A stretch of DNA of 64,000 nucleotides, from positions 62,001 to 126,000 of the forward strand of contig NZ_BIFH01000013.1 in the NCBI RefSeq assembly GCF_003967355.1, written 5' to 3'. Positions within the stretch are counted from its first letter, which is position 1. The number at the start of each line of letters is the position of its first letter. This DNA is from Embleya hyalina. GTDB lineage: Bacteria > Actinomycetota > Actinomycetes > Streptomycetales > Streptomycetaceae. Made by a program: the position numbers and the translations under genes. The notes below the pieces were generated by a model. That model had not been told where the DNA came from. It saw only the letters and a program-made list of their open reading frames with translations, and did no database searches. This document shows positions 16,120 through 60,698 of the stretch, in pieces.

Positions 16120-16491
16120 TCAGACCAGGTGTTCGCCGAGTACGGCGAGTTGGGTCACCCGGGCCTGCTCGTGCAGGGCACGGCCCTTGTCGGTGGCGAT
16201 GACGAAGACGCCCCGGCGGTCGCTCTCGCACATCGCGCGCTGGACCAGGCCGCACTTCTCGAGGCGGTCCACGGCGCGCGAGGAGGCACTCTGGCTCAGG
16301 TGCAGATCGACGACGAGGTCGTGGATGCGGGACTTGCAGCCCTCCGCGTCGACCAGGCGATCGAGGACCTCGTAGTCGCTCATCGTGAGGCCGTGCCGGG
16401 CCTGAAGGGCGCGATCGAGTTCGTGCGCCACCCGGCTGTACTGCGACAACAGCTCGCGCCAGCTCTCGATCAGCGGGTCCTTCGTCTTCAT
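16120..16491 (-). CDS. MarR-family transcriptional regulator
   Basis: A 123-residue winged-helix regulator. The ATG giving MKTKDPLIESWRELL is preferred: it yields the usual MarR length, and further upstream the frame runs through an AT-rich operator-like region. The DNA-binding part covers about residues 35-100 (LTMSDYEVLDRLVDAEGCKS, LSQSASSRAVDRLEKCGLV, CESDRRGVFV), with the wing Arg residues in place. It converges on the isonitrile synthase gene and diverges from an MFS pump across a region with repeated elements. It most likely represses that pump until a small molecule binds. Confidence 0.92.
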   Translation of the reverse strand: MKTKDPLIESWRELLSQYSRVAHELDRALQARHGLTMSDYEVLDRLVDAEGCKSRIHDLVVDLHLSQSASSRAVDRLEKCGLVQRAMCESDRRGVFVIATDKGRALHEQARVTQLAVLGEHLV

Positions 16492-16521
16492 TTCGTCACG
16501 GTAGCGCCGTGCGACGTAACA

Positions 16522-16571
16522 TGCAAGCAAATTTATTGCACCCACATTTAATGCGTAGACATTCAATGCGT
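16522..16571. promoter_or_regulatory. AT-rich MarR/MFS operator region with repeats
   Basis: TGCAA (16522-16526) and TTGCA (16536-16540) form an inverted repeat. It is followed by two direct repeats ACATTTAATGCGT (16544-16556) and ACATTCAATGCGT (16559-16571). The block is strikingly AT-rich for this genome and lies in the 100-bp divergent gap, so it likely carries the MFS promoter and MarR sites. Repeats seen directly; function inferred. Confidence 0.65.
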
Positions 16572-16591
16572 GCGCATGTACGTTCTTGCCC

Positions 16592-21416: not shown

Positions 21417-23168
21417 CTAGGGGATGTCCTGTTCGGCCCAGACGATCTTGCCGGTGGGGGTGCGGCAGGAACCCCAGCCCCGGCACAACATGTTGATCAG
21501 TTGCAGGCCGCGCCCGCCCTCGTCGCTGAGCGACGAGTGCTGGATCTGCGGCAGGTCCGGGCCGGTGTCGGAGACCTCCACCACCAGACGGTCGTGCCGG
21601 AGCAGCCGCAGCCGGCCCGGGGCGTGGCCGTAGCGCAGCGCGTTGCCGACGAGTTCGCTGACCACGAGTTCGGTGACGTCGGAGAGGTCGCCGAGTTGCC
21701 ATTCGTCGAGTCGGCCGCGCACCAACCGGCGGGCCAGGCCCGCCGCCGAGCCGTCCGGGGGCAGGTCCCAGACGAACAGGTCGCCGCCCAGGAGCGGCGG
21801 TTGGGTCGCCGCGACCATCATCACGGCCTCGTCGAAGCGGGCCCCGGCGCCGGGCGTCGGATCGCCGAGCACGCCGGCGTCCAGCTCCTCGGGACCGAGC
21901 CGGGCGGCCCGGTTGCGCAGCCGGGCCAGCTGTACGTCGATGTCCTCGGTCCGCGACTTGACCAGCCCGTCGGTGTAGAGCACGAGTCGGCTGCCCGGCG
22001 GAACGGTCAGGCGCAGCGGGTCGTACGGGATGACGCCGGCGCCGATGGGCGCGCCGATCGGCACGTCCACGAACGACGCCTTGCCGTCGGCGTCGACCAG
22101 CAGCGGCGGCGGATGACCCGCGCTGACCAGGGTGTACGCGCCCTCGGCCGGGTCGTAGACGGCGCACAGACACGTGGCCACCTGGTCGTCCTCCAGGTCG
22201 CGGGCGGCGAGGTCGAGGCGGGCGAGCATACGTTCGGGGGTCAGGTCGAGCGCCATCAGGGTGCGGGCGACCGCGCGCAGTACGCCGGTGGTGGCCGCCG
22301 CCGCCATGCCGTGACTCATCACGTCGCCCACCACCAGGGCGGTTCGACCGCCCGGCAGCGGGGCCACGTCGTACCAGTCGCCGCCGACGCCGAGCGGGTC
22401 GGCGGTCGGGATGTAGCGGGAGTTCACTCCGAGGCCCGGGGTGCGGGGGGTGACGCGGGGGAGCAGGTTGCGCTGGAGCCGGGCCACGTGTTCGCGTTCG
22501 CGGTCGTACAGCCGGGCGTTGTCCATGTCGATGGCGGCCTTGGAGGCGAGTTGCATCGCCAGCGCGAGGTCCGCCTGGGAGAAGCCGGGGCGGTCGCCCG
22601 CGCGGATGAAGTCGGCCGATCCCAACTGCACGCCGCGCGCGATCAACGGCACCATCATGTAGCTGTGTACGCCCGCCTGGCGGAGTTTGGCCGCGGCGCT
22701 GGGGGTGGGCGCGATCTCGTCGAAGTCCTCCGGCCCGAAGCTGGCGATCAGTAACGGCCGACCGTCGGCCAGGGCCCGGGTGAAGCGCGAGTCCCGCTCG
22801 GGGGGAGAGGTGGAGAGTTCGCCGATCTCGTCCGGCTCCAGATCGGCGAGCCGGTCGATGTACGCCACCGACATCGCCCGTCGGGCCGGTCTGCCGAGGC
22901 CGCTGGGGCGTCGACCCTCGTCGCCCTGGAGTACGGACTCGAGCAGATCGACGGCGGCGGCATCGGCCAAACGGGGGACGGTGAAGTCGGCCAGTTCCTG
23001 GGCGGTGGTCTTCAGGTCGAGCGTGGTGCCGATCCGTAGGCCCGCCTCGTTGAGCCAACTGAGTTGATCGCGGGTGGCGCGGGTGCGGGAGGCGAGGCTC
23101 CGAGCCTTCGCCGCTCCGCGTCGCCGCACGTGCTTCCGGCCGTGACCGCCATCCACTCTCCCGCTCAC
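21417..23168 (-). CDS. SpoIIE-type PP2C phosphatase with GAF and HATPase domains
   Basis: A 583-residue regulator. The domains in order are: a GAF-like sensor (about 40-210, TLDLKTTAQELADFTVPRLA to AMQLASKAAIDMDNARLYD), a SpoIIE/PP2C phosphatase (about 215-435, with metal-binding Asp residues in GGDWYDVAPL and VVGDVMSHG, and LVLYTDGLVKSRT), and an RsbW-like HATPase_c domain (about 455-580, TELVVSELVGNALRYG and DEGGRGLQLINML). One protein can therefore both dephosphorylate an anti-sigma antagonist and act as an anti-sigma-type kinase. The GTG at 23168 follows GAGG. The STAS protein encoded next on the same strand is a natural partner, though it lacks the phospho-site. Confidence 0.92.
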   Translation of the reverse strand: MSGRVDGGHGRKHVRRRGAAKARSLASRTRATRDQLSWLNEAGLRIGTTLDLKTTAQELADFTVPRLADAAAVDLLESVLQGDEGRRPSGLGRPARRAMSVAYIDRLADLEPDEIGELSTSPPERDSRFTRALADGRPLLIASFGPEDFDEIAPTPSAAAKLRQAGVHSYMMVPLIARGVQLGSADFIRAGDRPGFSQADLALAMQLASKAAIDMDNARLYDREREHVARLQRNLLPRVTPRTPGLGVNSRYIPTADPLGVGGDWYDVAPLPGGRTALVVGDVMSHGMAAAATTGVLRAVARTLMALDLTPERMLARLDLAARDLEDDQVATCLCAVYDPAEGAYTLVSAGHPPPLLVDADGKASFVDVPIGAPIGAGVIPYDPLRLTVPPGSRLVLYTDGLVKSRTEDIDVQLARLRNRAARLGPEELDAGVLGDPTPGAGARFDEAVMMVAATQPPLLGGDLFVWDLPPDGSAAGLARRLVRGRLDEWQLGDLSDVTELVVSELVGNALRYGHAPGRLRLLRHDRLVVEVSDTGPDLPQIQHSSLSDEGGRGLQLINMLCRGWGSCRTPTGKIVWAEQDIP

Positions 23169-23457
23169 CCGCACCTCTTTCCCTCGGCACCGGACCGTCG
23201 CACGCGACTCGGCCGCCCGTCGTGCCCCGATACCCACTCTTCGAGTGGGCCGGCGGGCCGACATGTGGGATGCGACTGTACCGGCGCGGGGTTGCGATTG
23301 CATCGAATCGATCGAGGTCGAGAGAACCGAGCGAGACGGCGCGATCTGCCGTTGTCCTACCCGCCCGAACCGCTCCCGATGCGAGGCGTGTGCGCGGCCG
23401 CCGGCGGGCGGGTGTATATCGGTTGAGGGGTGGGAGGGGGCCGGCTAGTTTGATCGG

Positions 23458-24276
23458 ATGAGCGAACATTCGGCGGTCGAGGACTGGCGCGCGGTCAATC
23501 GGGCCAATTGGGACGAGCGGGTCCCGATCCACACGGCCAGTCGGTTCTACGACGTGGACGGGTTCGTCGCCGGCAAGGACCCGCTGCGGGACTTCGAGAC
23601 GGCCGAGGTCGGGGACGTGGCCGGGAAGAGCCTGCTCCACCTGCAATGCCACTTCGGGCTCGACACCCTGTCGTGGGCGCGGCGCGGGGCGACCGTCACC
23701 GGGCTCGACTTCTCCGCGCCGGCGGTGGCCGCGGCGGGCGCGATCGCCGCGCGGATCGGCGCCGACACGGCCCGGTTCGTCACCTCCGACGTCTACGACG
23801 CGCCGACCGCGCTCGATGGACGCACCTTCGACATCGTCTACACCGGACTCGGCGCGCTGTGCTGGCTGCCGGACCTGGCCCGCTGGGCCCGTACCGCGGC
23901 GGCGCTCGTCGCACCGGGCGGCTTCCTCTACCTGGCCGAATTCCACCCGTTCGCCGACGTGCTGGCCGAGGACGGCCGTACGGTCGAGCTGGACTACTTC
24001 CGGCGCGACGGCACCGTCTGGGACGAGCCGGGCACCTACGCCGACATGAGCGCCGAGACCACCGCCAACGTCACGGTCGAGTGGCAACACGGCATCGGCG
24101 AGGTGGTCAGCGCCCTGACCGCGACGGGCCTGCGCCTGGAATTCCTCCACGAACACGACTACACCCTGTTCGCCCGCTTCCCCGTGCTCGAGGAACGGTC
24201 CGGCATCCACCGCTTCCCGGCGGACCACCCGAGGGTCCCCCTGATGTACTCCCTGCGCGCCGCCAAACCGGTCTAG
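23458..24276 (+). CDS. Class I SAM-dependent methyltransferase
   Basis: A 272-residue enzyme with a methyltransferase_11/25-type fold. Motif I is the degenerate LLHLQCHFGLDTLSWARRG, motif II GLDFSAPAV, followed by FDIVYTGLGALCWLPDL and LVAPGGFLYLAEFHPF. The signature LQCHFG-x-DT and the acceptor-side W-x-x-x-N-W-D-E-R at the N-terminus are common in a Streptomyces subfamily with unknown small-molecule substrates. It starts at ATG 23458 and is divergent from the phosphatase gene across 289 bp. No operon partner gives the substrate. Confidence 0.9.
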   Translation: MSEHSAVEDWRAVNRANWDERVPIHTASRFYDVDGFVAGKDPLRDFETAEVGDVAGKSLLHLQCHFGLDTLSWARRGATVTGLDFSAPAVAAAGAIAARIGADTARFVTSDVYDAPTALDGRTFDIVYTGLGALCWLPDLARWARTAAALVAPGGFLYLAEFHPFADVLAEDGRTVELDYFRRDGTVWDEPGTYADMSAETTANVTVEWQHGIGEVVSALTATGLRLEFLHEHDYTLFARFPVLEERSGIHRFPADHPRVPLMYSLRAAKPV

Positions 24277-46202: not shown

Positions 46203-46952
46203 ATGATGCGCACGGGTGGGCGGGTCGTGGTCGCCGGGCTGGTGGCGGCGGTGGTGGTCGGTGGCACGGCGGTATGGCGGCCGTGGGGGTCGGGTGGGTC
46301 GGGGCGCGAGGACGACGGGGCGGTGTTGTCGGCGCCCGGTCGGGTGTACCCCGTGCTGGCCGATCCCTATGGGGACCGGTACAACGCGAAGTTGTCGCCG
46401 ACGCTGATCCGGCGGCGCGAGGCGTTTCGGCAGCGGATCGCGGAGGTGCTGCAGCGGCATCTGCCGCCGCCCGCCGCCGTCGCGATCAGCGAGGCCACGT
46501 CCGGTGACTACCGGGTCACGGTCGACGGCAGGGAGTATCGGGTCGGGTTGAACCTCGACACCGTGCGCGTCGCGAAGCATCCGCCGAAGGGGATGGCCCA
46601 TCCGGTTCCGGACATGAGCGTGGACCCGTACACCCCGTGGTGCCGACCCCCGGAGAAGCGGGGCAGGGATCTCGGCTGCGTCGACGGGTCGCTCCCGGAC
46701 GGCGGGGCGGTCGCCGTCCACTTCCCCGCGCGGGCCGACCTTCCGCCCGCCGGAATCGGTACCACCGGCCCGTCGGCGGTGTTCCGGTATCGGGGTGCTC
46801 AGGTCGGCCTGACCGCGTTCGCCGACCTCGAATCCCGCTCCCTCCCGCCGATCACCGGCGAGCAGTGGCTCGCGGTGGTGCGCGACCCGTCATTCCTCGA
46901 ACTGGTCGACTACTGGCGGGCGCACCCCACCATCAAGGGCCACGGGTGGTGA
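46203..46952 (+). CDS. Secreted or membrane-anchored hypothetical protein
   Basis: A 249-residue protein. The N-terminus MMRTGGRVVVAGLVAAVVVG is a signal anchor. The outer part has PVLADPYGDRYNAKLSPTLI, VTVDGREYRVGLNLDTVRV and two close Cys (WCRPPEKRG, LGCVDG). No family is recognised. GGGGG stands 7 bp before ATG 46203; an in-frame GTG at 46173 is a less likely start. Its stop is followed at once by a bidirectional terminator. Confidence 0.75.
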   Translation: MMRTGGRVVVAGLVAAVVVGGTAVWRPWGSGGSGREDDGAVLSAPGRVYPVLADPYGDRYNAKLSPTLIRRREAFRQRIAEVLQRHLPPPAAVAISEATSGDYRVTVDGREYRVGLNLDTVRVAKHPPKGMAHPVPDMSVDPYTPWCRPPEKRGRDLGCVDGSLPDGGAVAVHFPARADLPPAGIGTTGPSAVFRYRGAQVGLTAFADLESRSLPPITGEQWLAVVRDPSFLELVDYWRAHPTIKGHGW

Positions 46953-46993
46953 CCGCCGGCGCCGGGGACGCACTCCCGGCGCCGGCGGTTTTC
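46953..46993. terminator. Bidirectional terminator, end of the poly-amino-acid operon
   Basis: Perfect 15-bp arms (46953-46967 and 46976-46990) with an 8-nt loop, followed by TTT on the plus strand. It starts directly after the upstream stop and serves the convergent aspartokinase operon as well. Confidence 0.9.
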
Positions 46994-47006
46994 GCCGCTC
47001 CCGCGA

Positions 47007-48272
47007 TCAGCGGCCCGAACCCGCGTGGACCAGGGCCTCCTCCGTCGCGTCGAGGTCGAACGCGGTGTGCAGGGCGCGCACCGCGTCGACCACCTGGGCG
47101 GTGCGGCACAGGACGGAGATCCGGATCTCCGACGTCGACATGATCTCGATGTTGACGCCCACGGCCGCCAGCGTCTCGCAGAAGGTCGCGGTGACCCCCG
47201 GACCGGCCCGCATGCCGGTGCCGATCAGCGAGACCTTGCCGACGTCCGCGTCGTGGCTCACCCTCTCGAAGCCGAGCTCGGCGCGCGTCGCGTCGAGTGC
47301 GGCCAGCGCGGCGGCCACGCCCTGCTCGGGCAGGACGAACGTCAGATCGGCGCGGGCGTCGTCCGGTCGTGCCGCGTTCCGCACCACCATGTCGATCTCG
47401 CCCCCGGCGTCGGCGACCGCGCGGACCAGCCGGCCCACCGCCCCCGCGCCGTCCGGGACCCCGTGCACGGTGACCTTCGCGCCGGACAGGTCGTGCGCGA
47501 CACCGGTGATCCGCGACGGTTCCGCGCCGGCGTCGTCGGGCCTGCCGGACACGGTGGTTCCGGGCTTGTCCCCGTACGAGGACCGGACCTGGATCGGTAC
47601 GCCCCAGCGGCGGGCGTACTCGACCGAACGCAGGGCCAGCACCCGACTCCCCGCCGCCGCCATCTCCTGCATGGCGTCGTAGCCGACGTGGTCGAGCAGC
47701 CGTGCGCTCGGCACGATCCGGGGATCCGCGCTGTACACGCCGTCCACGTCCGTGTAGATCTCGCAGACGTCGGCCTTGAGCGCGGCGGCCAGCGCGATGG
47801 CCGTGGTGTCGGAACCGCCGCGGCCCAGGGTGGTGATGTCGTCGGTGTCCCGGTTCAGTCCCTGGAATCCGGCGACCAACACGATGCGGCCCCGGTCGAG
47901 TTCCCGCCGCACCCGATGCGGGACCACCTCGACGATCTGCGCCCCGCCGTATTCGGCGGTGGTGAACACGCCCGCCTGCGGGCCGGACAACGAACACGCC
48001 GGCGCGCCCAGGTCGCGGATCGCCATCGCGGCCAGCGCGTTGGAGATGCGCTCGCCCGAGGTGAACAACATGTCCAGCTCGCGCGGGTGCGGGAAGGGCG
48101 AGATCTTCCGTGCCAGGTCGAGCAGTTCGTCGGTGGTGTCGCCCATGGCGGACAACACCACGACGACGTCGTGACCCTCGTGACGCGTGGCTACCACGCG
48201 TTCGGCGACCTGCTTGACGCGCTCGATGCTGTGCACCGAGGAGCCGCCGTACTTCTGCACGATGAGAACCAT
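47007..48272 (-). CDS. ask: Aspartate kinase, with substitutions at known feedback sites
   Basis: A 421-residue monofunctional aspartokinase (alpha/beta type with two ACT domains) that phosphorylates L-aspartate, the entry to aspartate semialdehyde. The kinase core has [27 protein letters not shown] and [14 protein letters not shown]. The ACT part runs from ~255. Aligned by eye with Corynebacterium LysC, which has the same length, three positions where single changes relieve Lys/Thr inhibition differ: Val279 (Ala), Ala301 (Ser) and Ala308 (Thr); Thr311, Gly345 and Ser381 are unchanged. It is the last gene of an operon with a diaminobutyrate aminotransferase and a Pls-type synthetase, so it supplies precursor rather than serving housekeeping needs. 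Confidence 0.95.
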
Positions 48273-48351
48273 GGAGTGAGGTCTCCTCGAGGCCGCCCCG
48301 GACGGGCGGCCGGTCGGCGCCGGGTCGGCCGGTGGCCCGGTGCGGATGGGC

Positions 48352-49710
48352 CTACGGGTGACCGGCTTCGACGGCGTCGACGAGGATCGTGCACGCGGTG
48401 TCCACGACCTCGGCGGTGACGTTGAGCGGCGGGAGGATCCGCACCACGCAGTCCTCGCGTCCGCCGCGCTCGACGATCAGTCCCCGGCGCAGCGCCCGGG
48501 CCTGGATCGCGCGGGCGAACTCCGCTGCGGGCAGCCCGGTTTCCGGGTCGGCGATCTCGATGCCCCACATCAGGCCCCGGCCGCGCACCTCGCGCACCCA
48601 GGGGTCGGCCATCAGCGGTGTGAGCCGGTCGGCGATCTGCGCGCCGCGCCGCCGCACGTTGCCGAGGATGTCGTCGCGCCGGACGATGCGCACGGCCTCG
48701 GCCCCGGCGGCGAACGCGAGTTGGTTGCCGCGGAAGGTGCCGATGTGCGCGCCGGCCGCCCAGCCGTCGAGCGCGTCGTCGTACAGGATCACCGCGATCG
48801 GGGTGCCGATGCCGCTGAGCGCCTTGGAGGCGACCACGACGTCCGGTTCGATCCCGTACTGCTCGAACGCGAACCAGGTACCGGTGCGCCCGCAGCCGGT
48901 CTGCACCTCGTCGACGATCAGCGGGATCCGCAACTCCCGGGTGAGCGCGCGCAGTCGGCGGACGAAGTCGGCGGTGGCGGGCACCACGCCGCCCTCGCCC
49001 TGCACGAGTTCGAGGAGCACCGCGGCGGGCAGCGGGATGCCGGCGTTGCCGTCGGTGAGCGAACGCTCCAGGTAGCCCACGCAGTTCGTGGTGCACGTGT
49101 CGGGGCTCAGGGCCAGCGGGCACCGACCGCAGTAGGAGAACGGGAAGAAGTGGGTGCCGGGTACGCCGTTGGGGACGGGCCGCTTCGCCGACACCAGACC
49201 GGTCAGCGCCATGGCGGCGTGCGTGCTGCCGTGGAAGCCGCCCTGGAAGGTGACGATGTCGCCGCGACCGGTGGCGATCTTGCAGAGCTTGATCGCCGCC
49301 TCGATGGCGTTGGCCCCGGTGGGACCGCAGAAGTGCACCTTCGTGCGCTCGCGCATCCCGGCGGGCAGCATCGACAGCTGGGCTTCCAGGAACGCGTCCT
49401 TGACCGGCGTCGGGAAGTCCAACCCGTGGGTGAGCACGCCCAGTTGCGCGGTGACGGAGCGGACCAGCTCGGGGTGGTTGTGGCCCAGCGACAGGACGCC
49501 GGCGCCGGCGAGGAAGTCGATGAAGACGTTGCCGTCGACATCGCGCACGAAGCTGCCGGCCGCCTCGGCCAGCGCGATGGGCAGATTACGCGGATACGTA
49601 CGGGCGTTGGACTCGCGCCGGGCCTGGCGCGCGAGCAGTTCGGCGGAGCGCGGACCGGGTAGGTCGCACGCCACATGGGGCTCGGTCATGGTGACCTGGG
49701 CAAGCGTCAT
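48352..49710 (-). CDS. dat: L-2,4-diaminobutyrate:2-oxoglutarate aminotransferase
   Basis: A 452-residue class III PLP aminotransferase. It is expected to convert aspartate 4-semialdehyde and glutamate to L-2,4-diaminobutyrate (Dab). Features: [52 protein letters not shown], the [11 protein letters not shown] motif, and the PLP Lys296 in [11 protein letters not shown]. The [20 protein letters not shown] segment and overall length fit the PvdH/Dat group more than the shorter EctB. GGAGA precedes the ATG. It sits 79 bp on either side from the Pls-type synthetase and the aspartokinase, forming a complete Asp to Dab supply and polymerisation set. Confidence 0.93.
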
Positions 49711-49732
49711 GGGTATCTCCGATGGGGACTAC

Positions 49733-49770
49733 GGGGATGGGGGGTGGGGGATGGGGGATGGGGGAATGGG
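49733..49770 (+). other. G-run cluster in the intercistronic gap (possible G-quadruplex)
   Basis: Six runs of three to six Gs separated by 1-3 nt (GGGG, GGGGGG, GGGGG, GGGGG, GGGGG, GGG) lie in the 79-bp gap between the synthetase and aminotransferase genes. They are on the template strand for that operon. The composition meets the usual G-quadruplex pattern; effect on transcription is inference. Confidence 0.7.
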
Positions 49771-49789
49771 CACCGGGAAGTGGGATGCC

Positions 49790-52700
49790 TCACCCGGGGC
49801 GGGCCGGGATGCCGCGCCACCGGGTTGCGTCGGGCAGGTGTTCGCCCTTCATGACCAGGGACAGTGCGTCGAGCGAGGCGCCCGCGCCGACCCGCGCGTC
49901 GTAGAGCACGACGGACCGGGTGCCGACCGAGGCACCCGCGCCGATCCGGACCTCGGACATCTTCATCACGCGGTCCTCGAACAGGTGGGTCTGCAACGAC
50001 GTCACCTCCGCCACCGCCGCGTCGTCGCCCACCTCGACCAGGTCGAACTCGGTCAGGTACGTGGTGCCGAGCCAGACCCGGCGGCCGATCCGGGCGCCGA
50101 ACAGCCGCAACACCGGGCCCATCAGGGGTGTGCCGGCGAGGATGTTGAGCAGACTCGGCACGACCAGGTTCTCGTACAGCCCGGTGATCAGCTCCGTGCG
50201 GCGCACCCAGATGCTCCACAGCGGTTCGACCCTGGCCCGATAGCGGCCGATGACCAGCCACTTCAACACCACCACGGCCAGCGTGGAGCCCACCCCGACG
50301 GCCAGGAACAGGGCCGGACCGAGCAGGAACAGCACCCACGGCGAGCAGGCCCCGGCGAGCCGGACGGCCGCGTACAGACTGCCGAGCGCACCCAGCGCGG
50401 CGATCGTGGCGGGCAGCGTCACCCGGAAGTACTCGATCGCCAGCCGGGCCGCGATCAGCCCCCGGCTGGGGTCGTACGTCAATTTCGCCGGGAAGTCCCG
50501 GCTCTCCTCGCGGCGCGGCAGGAAGATCGCGGGCGAACCGAGCCAGGTGGTCTCGGGGTCGATCGGCCGGGTCGGCGCGAGCGAGTGCACGCCGAGCAGA
50601 CTGTTCTCGCCGAGCCGGCACGAGCCGGGAACGAGCGCGCCGTTGCCGACGAAGCTGCGCGCGCCGATCTCGGCCGGGGCGAGCGCGACCTGCCCGTGAT
50701 GGAACACGGCCGGGCCCACCACGCTGACGTCCGCCACGAAGCTGCGCTCGCCGATGATCAGCATCTCGGGGTCGACGAAACTGACCGTGGCCACCTCGGA
50801 CCAGCGTCCGGTACGGGCACCGAGCAGGCGCAGGAACGGGACGAGGTACAGCGTCGAGTAGAGCGAGTGGGTCAGCGTCAGACTGGCCGTCATCATGCCG
50901 TCGCCGATCCACTTGCGCACGCCCAGGCCACTGCGTTCGGGATGGATCCCGGCCCGGGAGCGCGGCAGCACCACCCGTTTGACCACCAGCACCAGCACAC
51001 ACGTGAACAGCACCACCAGCGGCCCGGCCGGGAGCGTGGCGGCGATCGCCCACCCGAAGCCGTATCGCCAGGCGACGACCCCCACGAGCGCGCCGGCGGC
51101 ACCGGCGACCAACAGCGGGACCAGGGCGAGCAGTAGGGCGCCGGCGCCGAAGCCGATCAGGACCCGCAGCGGCCAGGCACGGCCGTCGTCCTCGGCCGCC
51201 ATCGCGTCGAGCAGGGCCGGCGCCCCCTCCTGGCGGGTGACGGGTGAGCCGGCCCAGTGCTCGTCGGCGGGCAGCACGTGGTCCGCCGGAACCGACGACT
51301 GCTCGCCGACCGAGGTCCGGTCGCCGATCACCGCGCCCGCGAGCACGACGCTGTTGGTTCCGACGAAGCAGCCGGCGCCGATGCGGACCGGCGCCAGCCG
51401 CAACCACCCGTGCTCGACCACGTACGGCTGGATCCGTGCGCCGTAGCCGATGCTCGTCCCGTCGCCGATCTCCACGAACGCGGGCAGCCCGAGCACCGCC
51501 GACACATGGCAGTCGCGGCCGATCCGGGCACCGACCAACCGCAACCACGGGGCCAGGAGCGGGGATCCGGTGAGGAACGCGAGCGGACTGAACGCGAGCA
51601 TCCGGCCGTACAGCCAGAACCGCAGGTAGGTCACGCCCCACAGCGGATACCACCCGGGGCGTACGCCGAGCATCAACAACCGCGCGCCGAACAGCGTGAC
51701 GAGCAGGCTCCCGACGATCCACCCGATCTCCAGGGCGATGAACCCGGGCAGGTGCAGGTGGGTGACGCGGTCGAGCGGGCCGCCGGGCGCCGGCTCGTGG
51801 ATCGGCAGGTCCCAGGCCAGGAACAGTCGGTACAGCAGCACGACCGCGGGCAGGCCCAGGGCGAGCAGCCACGCGTACAGCGCGACGAACTGCGCGACAC
51901 CGCAGGCGAATACCCGCCGGCCGCTGTGCCGGAGCGGCGCCGGCGCGGGGGTCGCGGGCGGCCGTGCGACACCGGCCGCCCGGACCTCGGCCGCCGCCTC
52001 GGCCTCGACGTGCCGGGCCAGGCCGCGAATGGTGGGGTGGGCGTACAGGTCGCCCATCGCCACGCCGCGCAACTCCGGTTCCCGGCGCAGTCGGGAGATC
52101 AGCCGGGCCGCCGCCATGGAGTGACCGCCGAGGTCGCAGAAGAAGTCGTCCTCGACGGAGAGCTCCGCGCCGCCGAGCACGTCCGCCCAGGCCCGGGTCA
52201 GGTGCCGCTCCAGCGCCGTCTCGGGCGCGACGTGGGTACCGGTACGCCGGTTCAGCGGCGCGGAGGCCGGCGCGGGCAGCGCGGCACGGTCGACCTTGTC
52301 CGCGGCCAGCAACGGGAATTCGGGCAACACCTCGACGTAGGACGGGATCATGTACGCGGGCAGCCGGCTCTGCAGGGCCACCCGCAACCGGGCCCGCAAC
52401 GCGTCGTGGGCGTCGGGGGCGCCGCGGATGTGACGCACGCCGTTGGACCCGTTGGACCCGTTCGACCCCTTGGATCCGTTGGATCCGTTCGACCCCGCGT
52501 CGTGCGCCGGGGCCGACGCCCCGTCGCCGCCGACGAGTGTCACGTAGCCGACCAGGTCCTGCACGACGCCGTCCCGCTCCAGCGGGGTCACGACCGCGTT
52601 CTCGATCGCGGGGTCCTCGCGCAGCACCTCCTCGATCTCGGCCGCCTCGATGCGGTAGCCGCGGATCTTGAGCTGGGTGTCGACCCGGCCGAGGTATTCG

Positions 52701-53950
52701 ATCTCGCCCGTCGCGGTGAACCGGCCGAGGTCGCCGGTGCGATAGATCCTCGGCACGTCGGCGCGTTCGGCCTCGATCGGGTTGGACACGAACCGCTCGG
52801 CGGTCAGGTCGGGGCGATTGACGTAGCCGACCGCCACACCCGGACCGCCGACGCAGATCTCCCCGCCCGCGCCCTCGTCGACCGGGCGCAGCCGCTCGTC
52901 GAGGATGTAGACCCGGTAGGTCGGCAGCGGTACGCCGATCGTCACCGGCCGGTTCGGGGCCAGTTCGCCGCAGGTCGCGGTGACGGTCGTCTCGGTGGGG
53001 CCGTACGCGTTGAGGATGCGTCGATCGGGTCGCGACCAGCGCCGGACCAGATCCGGCGGGCACGCCTCGCCACTGACCAACAGGCTGCGCAGAAGCGGGA
53101 ATTCGCCCTCGATGGTGGTCAACAGGGTGGGTACGCAGCACAGCACCGTGATCCGGTGCTCCAGCAGGAAGTCGCTCAGCCCCTGGCCGACCCGCCCACC
53201 GTCGGTGGGACCGGAGATCAGGGTCGCCCCGGCGATCCAGGCCGGCCAGATCTCCTCGACCGAGAAGTCGAAAGCGATCGAGAGCCCCTGATAGACCCGG
53301 TCCCGGGCGCTCACCCGGTAGATCGGGGTGACCACGTGCAGGAAGTTGGCGATGCTCGCGTGCGACACGGCCACGCCCTTGGGGCGCCCCGTGGTCCCGG
53401 AGGTGTAGATCACGTAGGACCACGAGCCCGGCTCGATCCGCACGTCCGGCCGATCGTCCGATTCTCGGGCCAAGTCGTGCGCCGCGACGTCGAGTTCGAG
53501 CAGCGGGCAGGTCGCCTCCGCGGTGCGCCGGCGCATGTCGGACGTACTGACCAGATCGCACAGGTCGGCGTCCCGGGCGATGAAGGCGACCCGTTCGGCC
53601 GGGAACGACGGGTCGAGCGGGACGTAGGCGGCGCCTGTCTTGATCACGCCGAGCAGGGCCACGTATGCGTCGAGCGAGCGTTCGAGGAGGATTCCGACGG
53701 CGCGGCCCGGAGCGGCCCCGCGGCTCCGGAGCAGATTCGCCAAGCGGTTGGCTCGGCGGTCCAGCTCCGCGTAACTCAACGAGGTGTTCTCGCAGACGAC
53801 GGCGACGGCCTCGGGATTGCGGTCGCAGGACCGCTCGAAGAAATGGGGGAGTACGCGGATCGGCGACTTGTCGAGAGTGGCCGTCGGGGGTGAGGCCCCC
53901 GGGGCGACGACCGAGTTCACCGGTCCGGGAGTGGTTCTCATACGGGTCAT
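49790..53950 (-). CDS. Pls-type NRPS: poly-amino-acid (probable poly-Dab) synthetase
   Basis: A 1386-residue membrane synthetase with the architecture of epsilon-poly-lysine synthetase. An adenylation domain (about 20-555) has YVIYTSGTTGRPKGVAVSH, SIAFDFSVEEIWPAWIAG, NAYGPTETTV, YRTGDLG and Lys552 in ADKVDR. A carrier domain has Ser611 in DLGGHSMAAA. The rest alternates TM helices (e.g. VAQFVALYAWLLALGLPAVV) with three soluble acyltransferase-like domains rich in hexapeptide repeats (SVLGLPAFVEIGDGTS-type). There is no condensation or thioesterase domain. The pocket start D-F-x-x-E fits a cationic amino acid. ATG 53950 follows GAGGA. Downstream dat and ask genes point to 2,4-diaminobutyrate as monomer. 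A Gly-Ser-Asn linker from 9-bp repeats interrupts the A domain. Confidence 0.93.
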   Translation of the reverse strand: MTRMRTTPGPVNSVVAPGASPPTATLDKSPIRVLPHFFERSCDRNPEAVAVVCENTSLSYAELDRRANRLANLLRSRGAAPGRAVGILLERSLDAYVALLGVIKTGAAYVPLDPSFPAERVAFIARDADLCDLVSTSDMRRRTAEATCPLLELDVAAHDLARESDDRPDVRIEPGSWSYVIYTSGTTGRPKGVAVSHASIANFLHVVTPIYRVSARDRVYQGLSIAFDFSVEEIWPAWIAGATLISGPTDGGRVGQGLSDFLLEHRITVLCCVPTLLTTIEGEFPLLRSLLVSGEACPPDLVRRWSRPDRRILNAYGPTETTVTATCGELAPNRPVTIGVPLPTYRVYILDERLRPVDEGAGGEICVGGPGVAVGYVNRPDLTAERFVSNPIEAERADVPRIYRTGDLGRFTATGEIEYLGRVDTQLKIRGYRIEAAEIEEVLREDPAIENAVVTPLERDGVVQDLVGYVTLVGGDGASAPAHDAGSNGSNGSKGSNGSNGSNGVRHIRGAPDAHDALRARLRVALQSRLPAYMIPSYVEVLPEFPLLAADKVDRAALPAPASAPLNRRTGTHVAPETALERHLTRAWADVLGGAELSVEDDFFCDLGGHSMAAARLISRLRREPELRGVAMGDLYAHPTIRGLARHVEAEAAAEVRAAGVARPPATPAPAPLRHSGRRVFACGVAQFVALYAWLLALGLPAVVLLYRLFLAWDLPIHEPAPGGPLDRVTHLHLPGFIALEIGWIVGSLLVTLFGARLLMLGVRPGWYPLWGVTYLRFWLYGRMLAFSPLAFLTGSPLLAPWLRLVGARIGRDCHVSAVLGLPAFVEIGDGTSIGYGARIQPYVVEHGWLRLAPVRIGAGCFVGTNSVVLAGAVIGDRTSVGEQSSVPADHVLPADEHWAGSPVTRQEGAPALLDAMAAEDDGRAWPLRVLIGFGAGALLLALVPLLVAGAAGALVGVVAWRYGFGWAIAATLPAGPLVVLFTCVLVLVVKRVVLPRSRAGIHPERSGLGVRKWIGDGMMTASLTLTHSLYSTLYLVPFLRLLGARTGRWSEVATVSFVDPEMLIIGERSFVADVSVVGPAVFHHGQVALAPAEIGARSFVGNGALVPGSCRLGENSLLGVHSLAPTRPIDPETTWLGSPAIFLPRREESRDFPAKLTYDPSRGLIAARLAIEYFRVTLPATIAALGALGSLYAAVRLAGACSPWVLFLLGPALFLAVGVGSTLAVVVLKWLVIGRYRARVEPLWSIWVRRTELITGLYENLVVPSLLNILAGTPLMGPVLRLFGARIGRRVWLGTTYLTEFDLVEVGDDAAVAEVTSLQTHLFEDRVMKMSEVRIGAGASVGTRSVVLYDARVGAGASLDALSLVMKGEHLPDATRWRGIPARPG
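52442..52495 (-). repeat. Six 9-bp tandem repeats encoding a (Gly-Ser-Asn) linker
   Basis: Six units of GTTGGACCC or close variants encode GSN repeats near residues 486-503 of the synthetase, in the C-terminal part of the adenylation domain. They make a flexible loop not found in the family core. Confidence 0.93.
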
Positions 53951-54844
53951 GACTCGTCCTCGTCGGGGATTTATGTAAACCCGGTTGAATAATGAGATTC
54001 CATCGGACATGCCTGAAGATCGACATACACGACAGGTATGCAGGACCGCTGCGACACCGCCCGCGCGTGACCGGCGCTACGGGGAAGGGCGCGAGTTGCA
54101 GGCGCCATCGGTGCAGGTGAAGAAGCATTCAAGGACCTGGAAACACCCGCCGAAACGGCCCGAGACGAGCCGACGCGGCCGTTTCGCGCGGTGGATTCCG
54201 GCGAACGGCCGGAGAGCCGAAGAACGCCGTGGCGGCGCCTTGGGTTCGGCTCTCTGTGCAATTCGAAGTCGTGATCATTCTTGACCGGGAAGATCACGGT
54301 CGTGCCGCCTATTGCGACTCGTGCCGGGCTCGACATTTGCCCGATAGCGCATGGAAGGCGAAATGAAAACTAGGTTCGCGGACTGTCTCCGGAACAGGTG
54401 AATACGAGCCAACGTGGGGTGGCCCATTGCGGCGGGTGAGGTTTACCACGGGTAACCGGGGGGCGATGCCGCGCTCCGCCGCGGGGTCGCCCGGTCGGAC
54501 ATCCGAAGGCGGGGTCGGGGCGGGTATGGGTGGGGGAGGTATGCCCTCGACGGCCGGCCGGGGCCGCACGCGGACGCCGCACATGGATGTTACCCATTGG
54601 AAACATGCGGCTACACAGGGTGGTGACGATGTCGACGCACAGGCGAGATCGAGCCGACGGCGGGTCGGCGAAAGTCGCCCGTGGGCCTCTCCAGGCTCCG
54701 ACGGCGCGTAAAGACTCGCTTACGGTTGGTTCTCGGTTGCCTCTTGACGCGCCGGGAACGGCCGTGATCGATCATGCGGGTCGAACGTCGCCACGCCGCC
54801 GCGCACAGTGCGCCGGTGCGCGATGCGCGTCGACCGTGGGTGGG
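53951..54844. other. 894-bp regulatory region upstream of the synthetase operon
   Basis: No confident gene is seen. The first ~70 bp are AT-rich for this genome. CATGCCTG (54008-54015) and CAGGTATG (54033-54040) form a near-perfect inverted repeat about 58 bp before the start codon. CGTGATC (54270-54276) and GATCACG (54292-54298) form another. Either may be an operator. TTGACG at 54744-54749 could be a rightward -35. The unusual length suggests complex control of the polymer operon. Confidence 0.5.
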
Positions 54845-55063
54845 TCAACCGCCGTCGTGCGTGGGCCACTCGTCGCCGCCCTCCCAGGCGACCCGGTCGC
54901 GGTCGGCGGGGTCGAGGCCCAGTTCGGCGGCGAGGGCGTCGAGTTCGCCCCGGTCGTGCAGTCGACGGTAGGTGCCGTCGGCGAGCATGACCAGCCGATA
55001 CGTGTCACCGGGACGGTACGCCTCGACGACGAGGTCGAAGCGACCGTGTGCCTTGTCGCTCAT
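54845..55063 (-). CDS. Small conserved hypothetical protein
   Basis: A 72-residue acidic protein, MSDKAHGRFDLVVEAYRPGD at the start, then TYRLVMLADGTYRRLHDRGE and a C-terminal ELGLDPADRDRVAWEGGDEW. It has a beta-rich N-half and a helical C-half, with no known domain. It ends well past a weak region between the synthetase operon and the MMPL gene, on the strand opposite to MMPL. Its codon-position bias supports coding. Confidence 0.6.
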   Translation of the reverse strand: MSDKAHGRFDLVVEAYRPGDTYRLVMLADGTYRRLHDRGELDALAAELGLDPADRDRVAWEGGDEWPTHDGG

Positions 55064-55195
55064 GTCGTCCAGGGTCGCGCATCCGAGTGCGAGCGGCCGG
55101 CGCCGGCGGGGGCGGGAACCACCGGCCGATGCCATCCTGGGGAGAGTGCACCTCGGGCGACACCACATCACGTTCGAGCGGTGGAGGTGTGGGGG

Positions 55196-57337
55196 ATGGG
55201 TGGTGCGGGGAGAGCCGCGCGACTGGTCTGCGGGCGGCGTGCCAAGTGGATCATCGTCGTGCTCTGGATCGTGGTCCTGGCCGCGGCCGGTCCGGCCGCG
55301 AGCAAGCTGACCGACGCGGAGAAGAACGACGCCTCCGCGTGGTTGCCGGAGAGCGCCGAGTCGACGAGAGTCGTCGACGAATCGAAGGCGTTCCTGCCGC
55401 AAAACGTCACCGCGGTCGTGGTGTACGCGCGCGACTCCGGCCTGACCCCGAGCGACGACGCGACGATCGCCGCCGACGCCGAGCAGCTGCGCGCCCTGAC
55501 CGCCCACGGCATCGTCGGCTCCCAGGTACAGGGCCCCCTGCCCGACCGTGTCGCCGACCCGCGAGCGAAGGTGATCCTGGTCCCGATCACCTTCGGCGAC
55601 AACGGCTGGAACAGCATCTCCAAGGCCGTGGACCAGATCCGGCCGATCGTGACGGACCACCCCGACGACGGCCTGGAAGCGCACATCACGGGTCCCGGCG
55701 GGGTCGCCGCCGACAGCAGCGACGCCTTCGCGGGCATCGACGGAACCCTGTTGTTCGCCGCCCTCGGCGTGGTCGTGGTGATCCTCCTCTGCACCTACCG
55801 CAGTCCGACGCTGCTGCTGGTCCCGGTGGTCTGCGTGGTCGGCGCGTTGCTCGCCGCCCAGGCGGTGATCTACGTGCTGGCCCGGCACGCCTCGCTCGTG
55901 GTCAACGCGCAGAGCGCGGGCATCCTGACCGTGCTGGTCTTCGGCGCCGGCACCGACTACGCGCTGCTGCTCGTCGCCCGCTACCGGGAGGAACTGCGCC
56001 GTCACGAGGATCGGCACGAGGCGATGGCGCTGGCCCTGCACCGGGCCGGACCCGCCGTGATCGCCAGCGCCTCCACGGTGATCGTGAGCATGTTGTGCCT
56101 GCTCGCCGCCGAGATGAACTCCACCAACGGGCTGGGACCGGTGGCCGCGATCGGCGTGGCGGTGGCGCTGCTCGCGATGCTGACCCTGTTCCCGGCGGTG
56201 CTGCTGATCACCGGGCGATGGATCTTCTGGCCCGCCGTCCCGCACCTGGGCTCGCCCGAGCCGACCGAGACCGGCCTGTGGGCTCGGACGGGTCGCCGCA
56301 TCGCCCGCCGCCCGCGCGTCGTGTGGATCACCACCGTCGCGATCTTGGCCGCGCTGTCCTTCGGCCTGATCTCGCTGAACGCCTCGGGCCTGACCACCGC
56401 CGAGAGCTTCACCGGCACGCCCGACTCGGTGGTCGGCCAGAAGGTCCAGGCCCGCTACTTCCCCGCCGGCACCGGACAACCGCTCCAGGTGGTCGCGAAC
56501 ACCGCGTCGCTGGACGCGGTCCGCACCTCGCTCGCCGCCGTCCCCGGAGTGGTCGCCGACAGTGTCACCATGCCGCCGGGCGTACCGGCGGAGCGCGACG
56601 GACGCTCGTATGTGGAGGCGACCCTGACCGCCGCCGCCGACAGCGGCGCGGCCCGGGACACGGTCGACGCCGCCCGCTCCGCGGTGCACGCGGTGCCGCA
56701 CGCCGACGCCCTGGTGGGCGGCGGTACCGCGGCCCAACTCGACAGCAATCGCGCCTCGGTCCGGGACGAGAAGGTGCTGATCCCCGTCATCCTGGCCGTC
56801 GTACTGATCATTCTGGCGCTGCTGTTGCGGGCCGTGGTGGCGCCGGTGGTGCTGATCGCGACGGTGGTGGTGTCGTTCACCGCGGCGCTCGGGATCAGTG
56901 CGTTGGCGTTCCGCCACGTGTTCGACTTCGCGGCCGAGGACACCTCGTTCCCACTGCTCGTGTTCGTCTTCCTGGTCGCCCTGGGCATCGACTACAACAT
57001 CTTCCTGAGCACGCGGGTGCGGGAGGAGAGCATGCGCGCCGACACCCGCACCGGTGCGCTGACCGGCCTCGCCGCGACCGGTGGGGTGATCACCTCGGCC
57101 GGCCTCGTGCTGGCGGGCACCTTCGCGGCGCTGGCCACGCTGCCGATCGTCGGGTTCGCCGAGATCGGCTTCGCGGTCGCACTGGGTGTCCTGCTCGACA
57201 CCATGGTGGTGCGGCCGGTGCTGGTCACGGCGCTGACGCTCGACCTGCGGCACCGGATGTGGTGGCCGAGCGCGCTGTGGCGACGCGAGGCGGAGGCGGC
57301 GGGTCGGGCCGAGGCCGGGAGTGGTGACGGGCGGTAG
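55196..57337 (+). CDS. MMPL-family RND transporter
   Basis: A 713-residue transporter. Twelve predicted TM helices are arranged as 1 + large outer loop + 5, duplicated (AKWIIVVLWIVVLAAAGPAA, LLFAALGVVVVILLCTY, then VWITTVAILAALSFGLIS, VLIPVILAVVLIILALLL). The proton-relay motif is GAGTDYALLLVARYREEL in half one and ALGIDYNIFLSTRVREE in half two, both with the Asp-Tyr pair. Family members export lipids, siderophores or pigments and give drug tolerance. GGAGG stands 8 bp before the ATG. It lies near, but divergent from, the polymer operon, so a role in export or protection is possible but unproven. Confidence 0.95.
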   Translation: MGGAGRAARLVCGRRAKWIIVVLWIVVLAAAGPAASKLTDAEKNDASAWLPESAESTRVVDESKAFLPQNVTAVVVYARDSGLTPSDDATIAADAEQLRALTAHGIVGSQVQGPLPDRVADPRAKVILVPITFGDNGWNSISKAVDQIRPIVTDHPDDGLEAHITGPGGVAADSSDAFAGIDGTLLFAALGVVVVILLCTYRSPTLLLVPVVCVVGALLAAQAVIYVLARHASLVVNAQSAGILTVLVFGAGTDYALLLVARYREELRRHEDRHEAMALALHRAGPAVIASASTVIVSMLCLLAAEMNSTNGLGPVAAIGVAVALLAMLTLFPAVLLITGRWIFWPAVPHLGSPEPTETGLWARTGRRIARRPRVVWITTVAILAALSFGLISLNASGLTTAESFTGTPDSVVGQKVQARYFPAGTGQPLQVVANTASLDAVRTSLAAVPGVVADSVTMPPGVPAERDGRSYVEATLTAAADSGAARDTVDAARSAVHAVPHADALVGGGTAAQLDSNRASVRDEKVLIPVILAVVLIILALLLRAVVAPVVLIATVVVSFTAALGISALAFRHVFDFAAEDTSFPLLVFVFLVALGIDYNIFLSTRVREESMRADTRTGALTGLAATGGVITSAGLVLAGTFAALATLPIVGFAEIGFAVALGVLLDTMVVRPVLVTALTLDLRHRMWWPSALWRREAEAAGRAEAGSGDGR

Positions 57338-58330: not shown

Positions 58331-58670
58331 CGGCCGCGAGGCCGATCCCGCCGTGTGCCGGGCCGGGTGGTCGGCGACGGGTCGACCCGCATCGGAGCGA
58401 AGCTTTGTGCGGCGATCTGACGGCCTGAAAGGCCGGTTTGGGTAGGGGGATTTGGCTCGTGGGATTTCAGGCGCTCAGAAAGGCGTACAGAGACCCTTAA
58501 GGTCTGGTGTTCGGGTCCATATTGGGTATGCTGAACTGGTTCTCGGGGCGCGGAAACCTGTGCGCCTCGGGCTTGTTCGGCCTGTCCGGGGCCGGTGTAT
58601 CACCCGACGACACGACCGCTCCCGCCATCACGGTGGGAGCGTGATTCGTGATGCCAGAAAAGAGGGCCTT
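58331..58670 (+). other. 340-bp gyrB leader with hairpin and candidate promoter
   Basis: No gene is seen. AGACC-CTTAA-GGTCT (58491-58505) is an inverted repeat. TATGCT at 58527-58532 is a fair -10. CGCTCCCGCC (58617-58626) pairs with GGTGGGAGCG (58632-58641), one G-T pair, to form a stable hairpin 29 bp before the start codon. Long leaders suggest regulated expression of this gyrB copy. Confidence 0.45.
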
Positions 58671-60698
58671 GTGACTGATTCCGGCAGCCTTTCCGCCGTC
58701 GCGTCGTCCGACGTCGGCGGGAGGGAGGGCCCGGCGTACGACGCCGGCGCGATCACCGTGTTGGACGGGCTGGACGCGGTGCGCCGGCGGCCGGGGATGT
58801 ACATCGGCTCGACCGGCGAGCGCGGGCTGCATCACATGGTGCAGGAGATCGTGGACAACTCCGTCGACGAGGCCCTGGCCGGTGTCGCGGATCGCATCGA
58901 TGTCACGCTCCTGGCCGACGGTGCCGTGCGGGTGGTGGACAACGGGCGCGGGATTCCGGTCGGGCTGCACCCGGAGAAGGGGCTACCGGCCGTCGAACTG
59001 GTGCTGACCGTGCTGCACGCGGGCGGCAAGTTCGGGGGTGGCGGCTACGCGGTCTCCGGCGGGCTGCACGGCGTCGGGTTGTCCGTGGTCAACGCGCTGT
59101 CCACGCATCTGTCGGTGGAGATCCGCGCCGACGGCCGGCGGTGGACCCAGGACTATCGCCGGGGTGTGCCCGTCACCGAACTGGTCCGGCACGAGGCCGT
59201 CTCCGACACCGGCACCTCGCTCACCTTCCGGGCCGACCCGGACGTCTTCGAGACCACCGAGTACTCGTTCGAGACCCTGGCCCGTCGCCTCCAGGAGATG
59301 GCCTTCCTCACCGGGGGCCTGACCCTGGCCCTGACCGACGAACGCCACGGCGCACGGACGCCGGGCACCACGCCGGGCGGGACCGGCGCCGGGGAGCCGG
59401 CCCGGTCCGTCGTGTACCGCTATCAGGGCGGCATCGTCGACTTCGTCACCCACCTCAACGCCGGCAAGGGCGAGCCGGTGCACGCGTCGGTCGTCGCCAT
59501 CCGGGCCGAGGACGCGGAGCGGTCGGTGTCCGTCGAGGTCGCGATGCAGTGGAACTCCCGGTTCAGGGAAGGGGTGTACTCCTATGCCAACGCCATTCAC
59601 ACCCGCGAGGGCGGCACCCACGAGGAGGGTTTCCGCGCCGCGCTGACCGGCGTGGTCAACCGCTACGCGCGCGAGCGACGGTTGTTGCGGGAAAAGGACG
59701 AGAACCTGCCCGGCGAGGACATCCGCGAGGGGCTGACGGCGATCGTCTCGGTCAAGCTGGGCGAGCCGCAGTTCGAGGGCCAGACCAAGACCCGGCTGGG
59801 CAACACCGAGGCGCGGACGTACGTACACAAGGCCGTGCACGAGCAGTTGACCGACTGGTTCGCCCGAAACCCGGTCGACGCGACGGAGATCGTGCGCAAG
59901 GCGGTCCGGGCCCGCACCGCCCGGCTCGCCGCGCGCAAGGCCCGTGATCTCACCCGCCGCAAGAGCCTGGTGGAATCCATCGCGCTGCCCGGCAAACTCG
60001 CCGACTGCCGGTCCACCGATCCGACGGCCTGCGAGATCTTCATCGTCGAGGGCGACTCCGCCGGCGGTTCGGCCAAGTCCGGCCGCAATCCCGAGTATCA
60101 GGCGATCCTGCCGATCCGGGGCAAGATCCTCAACGTCGAGAAGGCCCGCGTCGACAAGATCCTCGACAACCAGGAGATCCAAGCCCTCATTTCGGCCTTC
60201 GGCACCGGCGTGCACGAGGACTTCGACATCGACCGGCTGCGCTACCACCGGATCATTCTGATGGCCGACGCGGACGTCGACGGTCGGCACATCAACACGC
60301 TGCTCCTGACCTTCCTCTTCCGTTTCATGCGGCCGCTGATCGAGGCCGGCCACGTGTATCTCTCCCGCCCGCCGCTGTACAAGATCACCTGGGGGCGGGG
60401 CGACATCGAGTACGCCTACGCCGATCGGGAACGCGACGTGCTCGTCGAACGCGGCCGGCGCGAGGGCAGGCGGCTGCGCGAGGAGAGCATCCAGCGCTTC
60501 AAGGGGCTCGGCGAGATGAACGCGGAGGAGTTGCGGGTGACGACCATGGACCGGGACCACCGGGTGCTCGGTCGCATCACGCTCGAGGACGGCGCACAGG
60601 CGGACGCGCTGTTCTCGATCCTGATGGGCGAGGACGTCGAGGCGCGGCGCGGGTTCATCCAACGCAACGCCGCCGACGTGCGGTTCCTGGACATCTGA
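58671..60698 (+). CDS. gyrB: DNA gyrase subunit B paralogue
   Basis: A 675-residue type IIA topoisomerase subunit. The GHKL ATPase has [32 protein letters not shown] and [14 protein letters not shown]. The TOPRIM part has [20 protein letters not shown] and [14 protein letters not shown]. The GyrB-type end [18 protein letters not shown] is also present. Length and start ([17 protein letters not shown]-like) fit streptomycete GyrB. But dnaN, recF and gyrA are not adjacent, so this is most likely a second copy, as seen for resistant GyrB in aminocoumarin producers. The start GTG follows AGAGGG. A thrS paralogue is convergent, 66 bp away. Confidence 0.9.

Follow-up and report, generated by a model that had tools for sequence, protein, structure and literature searches.

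The locus described here lies in a 64,000-nucleotide stretch of Embleya hyalina DNA (contig NZ_BIFH01000013.1, positions 62,001 to 126,000; the window) and raises the question of what is made by a Pls/PosA-family synthetase whose gene is followed on the minus strand, in order of transcription, by genes for an L-2,4-diaminobutyrate (Dab) aminotransferase (Dat) and an aspartokinase (AK), with 79 bp in both intergenic gaps. Our analysis indicates that the three genes very probably make gamma-linked poly-L-2,4-diaminobutyrate (poly-L-Dab). The core of an earlier note on this DNA, a poly-L-Dab synthetase with a dedicated Dab supply, is well supported by the adenylation pocket, by the grouping of the synthetase with that of Streptomyces celluloflavus and by the finding of no PddB, the D-Dab racemase whose gene is coupled to the synthetase gene in gamma-poly-D-Dab clusters. 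The arrangement is not new: publications already describe the S. celluloflavus synthetase and, in Streptoalloteichus hindustanus, PddA to PddD.

Gene content and domain organisation

The three genes are:

49790..53950, minus strand: Pls/PosA-family single-module nonribosomal peptide synthetase, predicted gamma-poly-L-Dab synthetase, 1386 aa (TIGR02353, 553.5 bits; pocket DFECLSAVTK; groups with S. celluloflavus)
48352..49710, minus strand: L-2,4-diaminobutyrate:2-oxoglutarate aminotransferase (Dat, PddC-like), class III, 452 aa (TIGR00709, 438.7 bits)
47007..48272, minus strand: putative pathway aspartokinase (PddD-like), 421 aa, altered at candidate feedback sites (NF005153, 623.6 bits; R298, A301, A308)

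The synthetase reading frame opens at 54010 and stops at 49790, and translation probably begins with the ATG at 53950, which is preceded by a AGGACGAG-like ribosome site. All three scores were above the family cut-offs (Pls/PosA, 423.1; dat, 401.6; aspartate kinase, 585), as was that of the synthetase with AA-adenyl-dom (428.8, cut-off 317.4), while two narrower Dat models, NF005393 and NF005386, scored under their own cut-offs. Pfam matches across the trio were AMP-binding, PP-binding, Hexapep, Aminotran_3, AA_kinase and ACT, and no condensation or thioesterase domain was found in the synthetase by Pfam at E 0.001. The genes, order, strand and gaps given in the earlier note were reproduced by the open reading frames and family models, and Pfam and the NCBI families agreed with its description of an adenylation (A) domain and a carrier without condensation or thioesterase domains. 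The synthetase follows the plan of the Pls/PosA family: an A domain, one carrier and then a terminal stretch some 700 residues long. The parts of the synthetase, all on the minus strand, are:

52823..53839, minus strand: adenylation core (AMP-binding; Pfam PF00501, 3.6e-82; coordinates relative to the 53950 start)
52979..53269, minus strand: stretch with pocket positions 1-9 (D228, F229, E232, C271, L291, S293, A315, V323, T324; the tenth, K552, lies outside)
52007..52201, minus strand: peptidyl carrier domain with the phosphopantetheine site DLGGHS (Pfam PF00550, 8.8e-12; motif in the translation)
49793..51880, minus strand: predicted membrane and condensing region, three repeats of a long-helix pair then a left-handed beta-helix (AlphaFold2, hhalign, Foldseek)
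49970..49993, minus strand: QTHLFEDR motif of the third repeat (conservation across 57 aligned sequences)

Adenylation pocket, phylogeny and the monomer

The ten-letter pocket of the window synthetase was DFECLSAVTK, with positions assigned by PheA numbering. The synthetase of S. celluloflavus NRRL B-2493 (locus L036), which from the species we presume to be WP_110952768, was 72% identical over aligned positions and had the same ten letters, and Dat and AK genes come next in line there as in the window. According to PMC8117764, in a figure of which pocket codes are printed, WP_110952768 is the gamma-poly-L-Dab synthetase of S. celluloflavus and one of the experimentally confirmed enzymes, whereas the product of the window cluster is a prediction. 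Asp1 (D228) and Glu3 (E232) are present, as in the diamino-acid pockets of PMC10522769, where Phe at position 2 marks 2,3-diaminopropionate (Dap) or Dab as the substrate, Met ornithine and Ala lysine. The comparison of the pocket with those of known synthetases, which the earlier note had recommended, gave an acidic, Dab-type pocket and not a neutral one. Two other known enzymes share the NCBI family and domain plan: Streptomyces albulus Pls (PDB 7wew, A domain), which, unlike the window synthetase, has a lysine-type pocket with Ala at position 2 and the peptidase PldII as partner gene, and the delta-poly-L-ornithine synthetase PosA, which also shares the threefold beta-helix model but has Met at position 2 and a single-gene operon.

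A genome scan gave 362 synthetase relatives, of which the best 80 were analysed, and the pocket was scored in the 78 with a full-length synthetase. The exact code of the window was common to 13 of these, S. celluloflavus included, all with Dat adjoining; other L-type codes were DFEALSAVTK (L058), DFECLSAVSK (L023), DFECLSVVTK (L020) and DFECLSVVSK (L022), and DFECLSCVSK was the code of exactly four relatives, those with PddB. Ser occupied position 6 in 21 of the 78, and Dat adjoined the synthetase in 18 of these, the others being L022, where the contig edge lies just past the gene, and L032 and L033, both with PddB. Gly occupied position 6 in the remaining 57, and Dat at ≥50% identity was found in none of them within the sequence examined (less than 5 kb downstream in 14 of the 78); one, L097, had a distant aminotransferase (34% identity).

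A monomer of Dap or another diamino acid is very unlikely on these data. Phe at position 2 is common to the poly-Dap synthetase according to PMC10522769, and the Dap enzyme adenylates Dab too, more weakly (PMC4668381); against this, Dat and AK specify Dab, and positions 6 and 7 of the window pocket are not the Gly-Thr seen in the 57 Dat-less relatives. That all Gly-Thr relatives are poly-Dap enzymes was considered and rejected. A large Gly-Thr clade occurs in actinobacteria (for example L050, L052, L069, L072), and in several of its members BPL_N and dimethylarginine-hydrolase (DDAH)-like neighbours recur (one member of each scanned); cysteine-synthase/cyclodeaminase neighbours were not searched for.

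A quick maximum-likelihood tree was built from 41 rows (39 loci hand-picked from the 78, the window and the second synthetase of the same genome, which served as root on a very long branch). The window grouped with S. celluloflavus and 16 more L-type rows (18 in all; SH-aLRT 97), and the four PddB rows formed a separate clade (SH-aLRT 100), beside which, within one larger clade, stood two Ktedonobacteraceae rows with Gly6 pockets. From the aligned sequences we propose that positions 6-7 may form a code in which Ser-Ala or Ser-Val denotes L-Dab, Ser-Cys D-Dab and Gly-Thr others; position 9, which is Thr in most L-type and Ser in the four D-type enzymes, suits a handedness rule less well because Ser occurs there in the L-type enzymes of L022 and L023 too.

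The gene trio is not a chance arrangement, because Dat adjoined the synthetase in 19 of the 80 relatives and an AK kinase domain also adjoined in 15 of these 19; among the other four, L058 had the AK regulatory half only and L020, L031 and L043 had no AK match. The window Dat was 72–81% identical to the Pls-adjoining Dat of 18 relatives and 89% identical to that of L048. In a comparison of 23 loci (the window and 22 relatives; crude gene calling, which called only 15 Dat and 11 AK genes), the trio were the only genes found in more than eight loci. A group of antisense open reading frames inside the dat/ak region of 8 of the 23 loci consisted of shadow frames and was omitted from the Pfam scan. 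Lesser recurring neighbours were an M1 peptidase (5 of 23 loci), a major facilitator superfamily (MFS) transporter (4 of 23) and, at three loci each, a second MFS group, an ABC transporter, response regulators, histidine kinases, a P450-like group (by eye) and a glycosyl hydrolase; one member per group was scanned, and the P450-like and antisense groups went unscanned.

In Streptomyces sp. NBC_01527 the same trio sits on a linear plasmid of 0.9 Mb, a two-component pair lying upstream of it, and Embleya sp. NBC_00888 has a synthetase 80% identical to that of the window together with Dat and AK. When 150 genomes of the family were scanned with Dat, a close match (E ≤1e-150) was found in 13, only some of the genomes without a match being named; within the genus of the window, G000, G004 and G031 had a match and G020 had none, which concerns the gene and not synteny. 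A single Streptomyces orinoci genome contains a synthetase-Dat locus at two different sites (L025, L043), and in Streptomyces morookaense (L023) a second Pls-type gene (22789-24066), 68% identical to the window protein and cut by the end of the locus, lies about 8.7 kb downstream of the first.

Handedness of the polymer

The pddABCD cluster of S. hindustanus shares with the window a Pls-type synthetase, Dat (PddC) and a pathway aspartate kinase (PddD), and the window differs in having no PddB, a different pocket and a place in a different clade; S. hindustanus was absent from the analysed set and was represented there by four PddB loci, one of them from Streptoalloteichus tenebrarius (L035). 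According to PMC8225329, which cites Yamanaka 2020, PddC is the transaminase and PddD the pathway-specific aspartate kinase, and poly-D-Dab clusters have the same three kinds of gene plus pddB. This likeness, and the 54–57% identity of the PddB-linked synthetases to that of the window, favour a poly-D-Dab product with the racemase encoded elsewhere, to which we nevertheless give little credence, as phmmer confined PddB to 4 of the 80 relatives, the same four that read DFECLSCVSK and form their own clade.

No PddB match was found in the window, and a direct search of the genome with the PddB of Actinokineospora enzanensis returned only the housekeeping DapF (49 bits, 35%). This was also the single DapF-type epimerase in a Pfam DAP_epimerase search of the genome, a search able to reveal a PddB because the model scores PddB at 93.6 bits; a pyridoxal-phosphate-type Dab racemase was not searched for. 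Compared with the A. enzanensis PddB, the DapF-type protein scored 50 bits, while the other three PddB proteins scored 338 to 459 bits. The statement of the earlier note that no epimerase lies beside the synthetase is borne out, and L-Dab is the residue expected in the polymer.

Supply of diaminobutyrate

The genome (12.05 Mb, 78 contigs, 98% complete) contained two AKs above the family cut-off, the window copy and a copy on contig C23. The operon is not complete from aspartate to polymer, as had been claimed: aspartate-semialdehyde dehydrogenase (Asd) has to act between the AK and Dat steps, and the single copy found adjoins the housekeeping AK on contig C23.

The window AK has R298, A301 and A308 where housekeeping-type enzymes have Q, S and T, at sites that we take to bear on lysine-threonine feedback in Corynebacterium. 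AKs were scored at 23 of 30 loci (four split-gene pieces and three window-type copies were excluded), and the best AK of each of 19 genomes kept Q/S/T in 19 of 19. Of the 12 cluster AKs whose regulatory part could be aligned, 11 depart at at least one site. Among feedback changes, T311I has literature support (PMC4225761), and the window AK retains T311. The substitutions suggest that the window AK is a deregulated pathway enzyme. The AK regulatory half was not found in L029 and L045, was degenerate in L034 and was all that remained of AK in L058. In L058 (Pseudonocardiaceae YIM PH 21723, 12305-12811) Dat is followed by a stand-alone AK regulatory (ACT) protein without a kinase domain, and in L029 (Streptomyces catenulae, about 16340-17000) an AK without the ACT part is followed by a phosphopantetheinyl transferase gene, the presence of which in this cluster was counted in favour of poly-Dab. 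AK feedback may have been dismantled by several routes, namely point changes (the window), loss of the regulatory half (two relatives) and retention of only that half (a third). The joint proposition that pocket positions 6 and 7 read out monomer and handedness and that Dab clusters repeatedly dismantle AK feedback may hold, and we put it forward tentatively, as rather doubtful.

A number of observations weigh against the assignment of the locus to poly-L-Dab. The product of this strain is a prediction; the Dab-specific pocket letters rest on gene neighbourhood and not on assays; the codes follow the clades, so that code, neighbourhood and tree are not independent evidence; and PMC10522769 describes Dap and Dab synthetases as hard to distinguish. 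Regarding supply, 3 of the 19 Dat-linked relatives are without AK, which makes AK helpful and not required; the cluster AK of L026 is unaltered at each of the three scored sites; and changes at one or two of them are also seen in four second-copy AKs from outside such clusters, so that the AK changes are not unique to the Dab pathway. Two further Dat-family genes over the cut-off are present in the genome, and Dat-family enzymes serve several pathways, which would suit a supply of Dab for some other use, the synthetase adding one or a few Dab units without forming a homopolymer. We regard this as exceedingly improbable, since no genes other than pls, dat and ak recur as a set among the relatives and the identified recurring neighbours (M1 peptidase, MFS/ABC, two-component, glycosyl hydrolase; the P450-like group being unscanned) suggest neither ectoine nor a siderophore. 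About 5 kb separates dapF on contig C35 from a second Dat-family gene (L100 5754-7637, 12437-13291), which is near a siderophore-synthetase-like gene (by eye).

Condensing region and proposed mechanism

An AlphaFold2 model of residues 691-1386, made with a 57-sequence alignment, had a pLDDT of 93.6 and a pTM of 0.92, and showed helix pairs at 2-22/44-69, 238-273/275-304 and 473-511/514-543 (segment numbering), each followed by a beta-helix. The six long helices of the model would be the three membrane-helix pairs typical of the family, and the beta-helices its three soluble domains; from this topology the carrier and the soluble domains would be expected on the same side of the membrane. The three repeats matched one another in hhalign (probabilities 99.86, 99.91 and 98.88), whereas Pfam scored one Hexapep stretch only. 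Foldseek matched the model to serine and maltose acetyltransferase, LpxA, LpxD, GlmU and gamma-carbonic-anhydrase-like proteins; whole-query TM scores were low, since any one match spans part of the model only, and a PDB sequence search with the region gave weak hexapeptide-type matches only. The "three hexapeptide-rich domains" of the earlier note can accordingly be recognised as three internal left-handed beta-helix repeats. We do not present the threefold beta-helix region as a new idea, an option that was dropped, since it is already in print as a prediction for PosA (PMC10522769), and PMC8117764 already calls the three domains acetyltransferase-related.

What is added here is a residue assignment in the third repeat. 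In its QTHLFEDR motif, Q, T, H, D and R were conserved in 57 of 57 sequences and E in 56 of 57, the lysine-type enzyme of the same genome included, and the His was the sole histidine above a 93% conservation filter. On this conservation, His1322 is proposed as the catalytic base.

For the formation of poly-L-Dab we propose that the pathway AK would convert aspartate to aspartyl phosphate under weakened feedback control, that the housekeeping Asd would convert this to aspartate semialdehyde, and that Dat, with glutamate as amino donor, would yield L-Dab. The A domain would then activate free L-Dab, Glu232 holding the side-chain amine and Phe229 limiting chain length, and load it onto the carrier domain. 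The threefold beta-helix region, similar to phosphopantetheine-using hexapeptide acyltransferases, would move the residue onto the gamma-amine of the growing chain, repeatedly, with His1322 as the likely base.

Neighbouring genes and export

Some 0.9 kb lies 5' of the synthetase, followed by a 71-codon open reading frame without a Pfam match, and on the opposite strand upstream are genes for an MMPL transporter (54530-57337), a Band 7 protein and, behind the latter and about 4.5 kb upstream of the synthetase, a GyrB-like protein (58452-60698). A promoter/terminator consensus scan of 46700-54900 on both strands gave no match and is uninformative at this G+C. The earlier remark that no exporter is obvious needs qualifying: the MMPL gene does lie near the synthetase, yet it does not recur beside relatives. 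Compared with the 80 relatives, the plasmid records L156 and L157 and six loci of uninformative size (L104-L109), it had a single weak match (26%, in L096), within upstream DNA of less than 5 kb in 11 of the 78 full-length relatives, and the comparison of 23 loci showed no recurrence of it; its role as dedicated exporter or cluster member was rejected. No transporter was common to most relatives, the MFS and ABC groups each occurring in a few loci. The suggestion of the earlier note that the synthetase may be its own conduit is a conjecture that gained no support here.

Two-component regulator genes lie near some clusters (L028, L034, L045, L029; L157 3701-5693) and directly 5' of the synthetase in NBC_01527. 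M1-type peptidases occur near the synthetases of L019, L023, L024, L026 and L036 and of 11 Gly-Thr loci (identified by Pfam on the L026 member and, for the 11-locus group, from its sequence), where by analogy with PldII they perhaps serve self-protection.

A predicted second polymer in the same genome

Contig C47 carries a second synthetase with the pocket DAESIGTVVK, the A domain of which scored 660 bits against PDB 7wew (epsilon-poly-lysine synthase), and directly behind it lies a gene 45% identical to the L026 M1 peptidase. From its position this gene would be PldII, which adjoins pls in S. albulus according to PMC9223678 and PMC8117764. The C47 synthetase thus has both the Ala at position 2 and the adjoining peptidase of epsilon-poly-lysine systems, whereas the window synthetase has Phe229 and an adjoining Dat. 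The genome is therefore predicted to encode two polymers, of poly-L-Dab and epsilon-poly-lysine type. Co-production of both by S. celluloflavus has been reported (Takehara 2008). According to PMC8117764, S. celluloflavus makes both poly-L-Dab and epsilon-poly-lysine, and it resembles the window genome in this pairing.

With this locus, the strain joins such organisms as a probable producer of both poly-L-Dab and epsilon-poly-lysine, each an antimicrobial polycation. It also offers a testable pocket rule that may separate L-Dab, D-Dab and other synthetases, a distinction that PMC10522769 calls difficult, and it highlights possibly deregulated aspartokinases of use for Dab supply.

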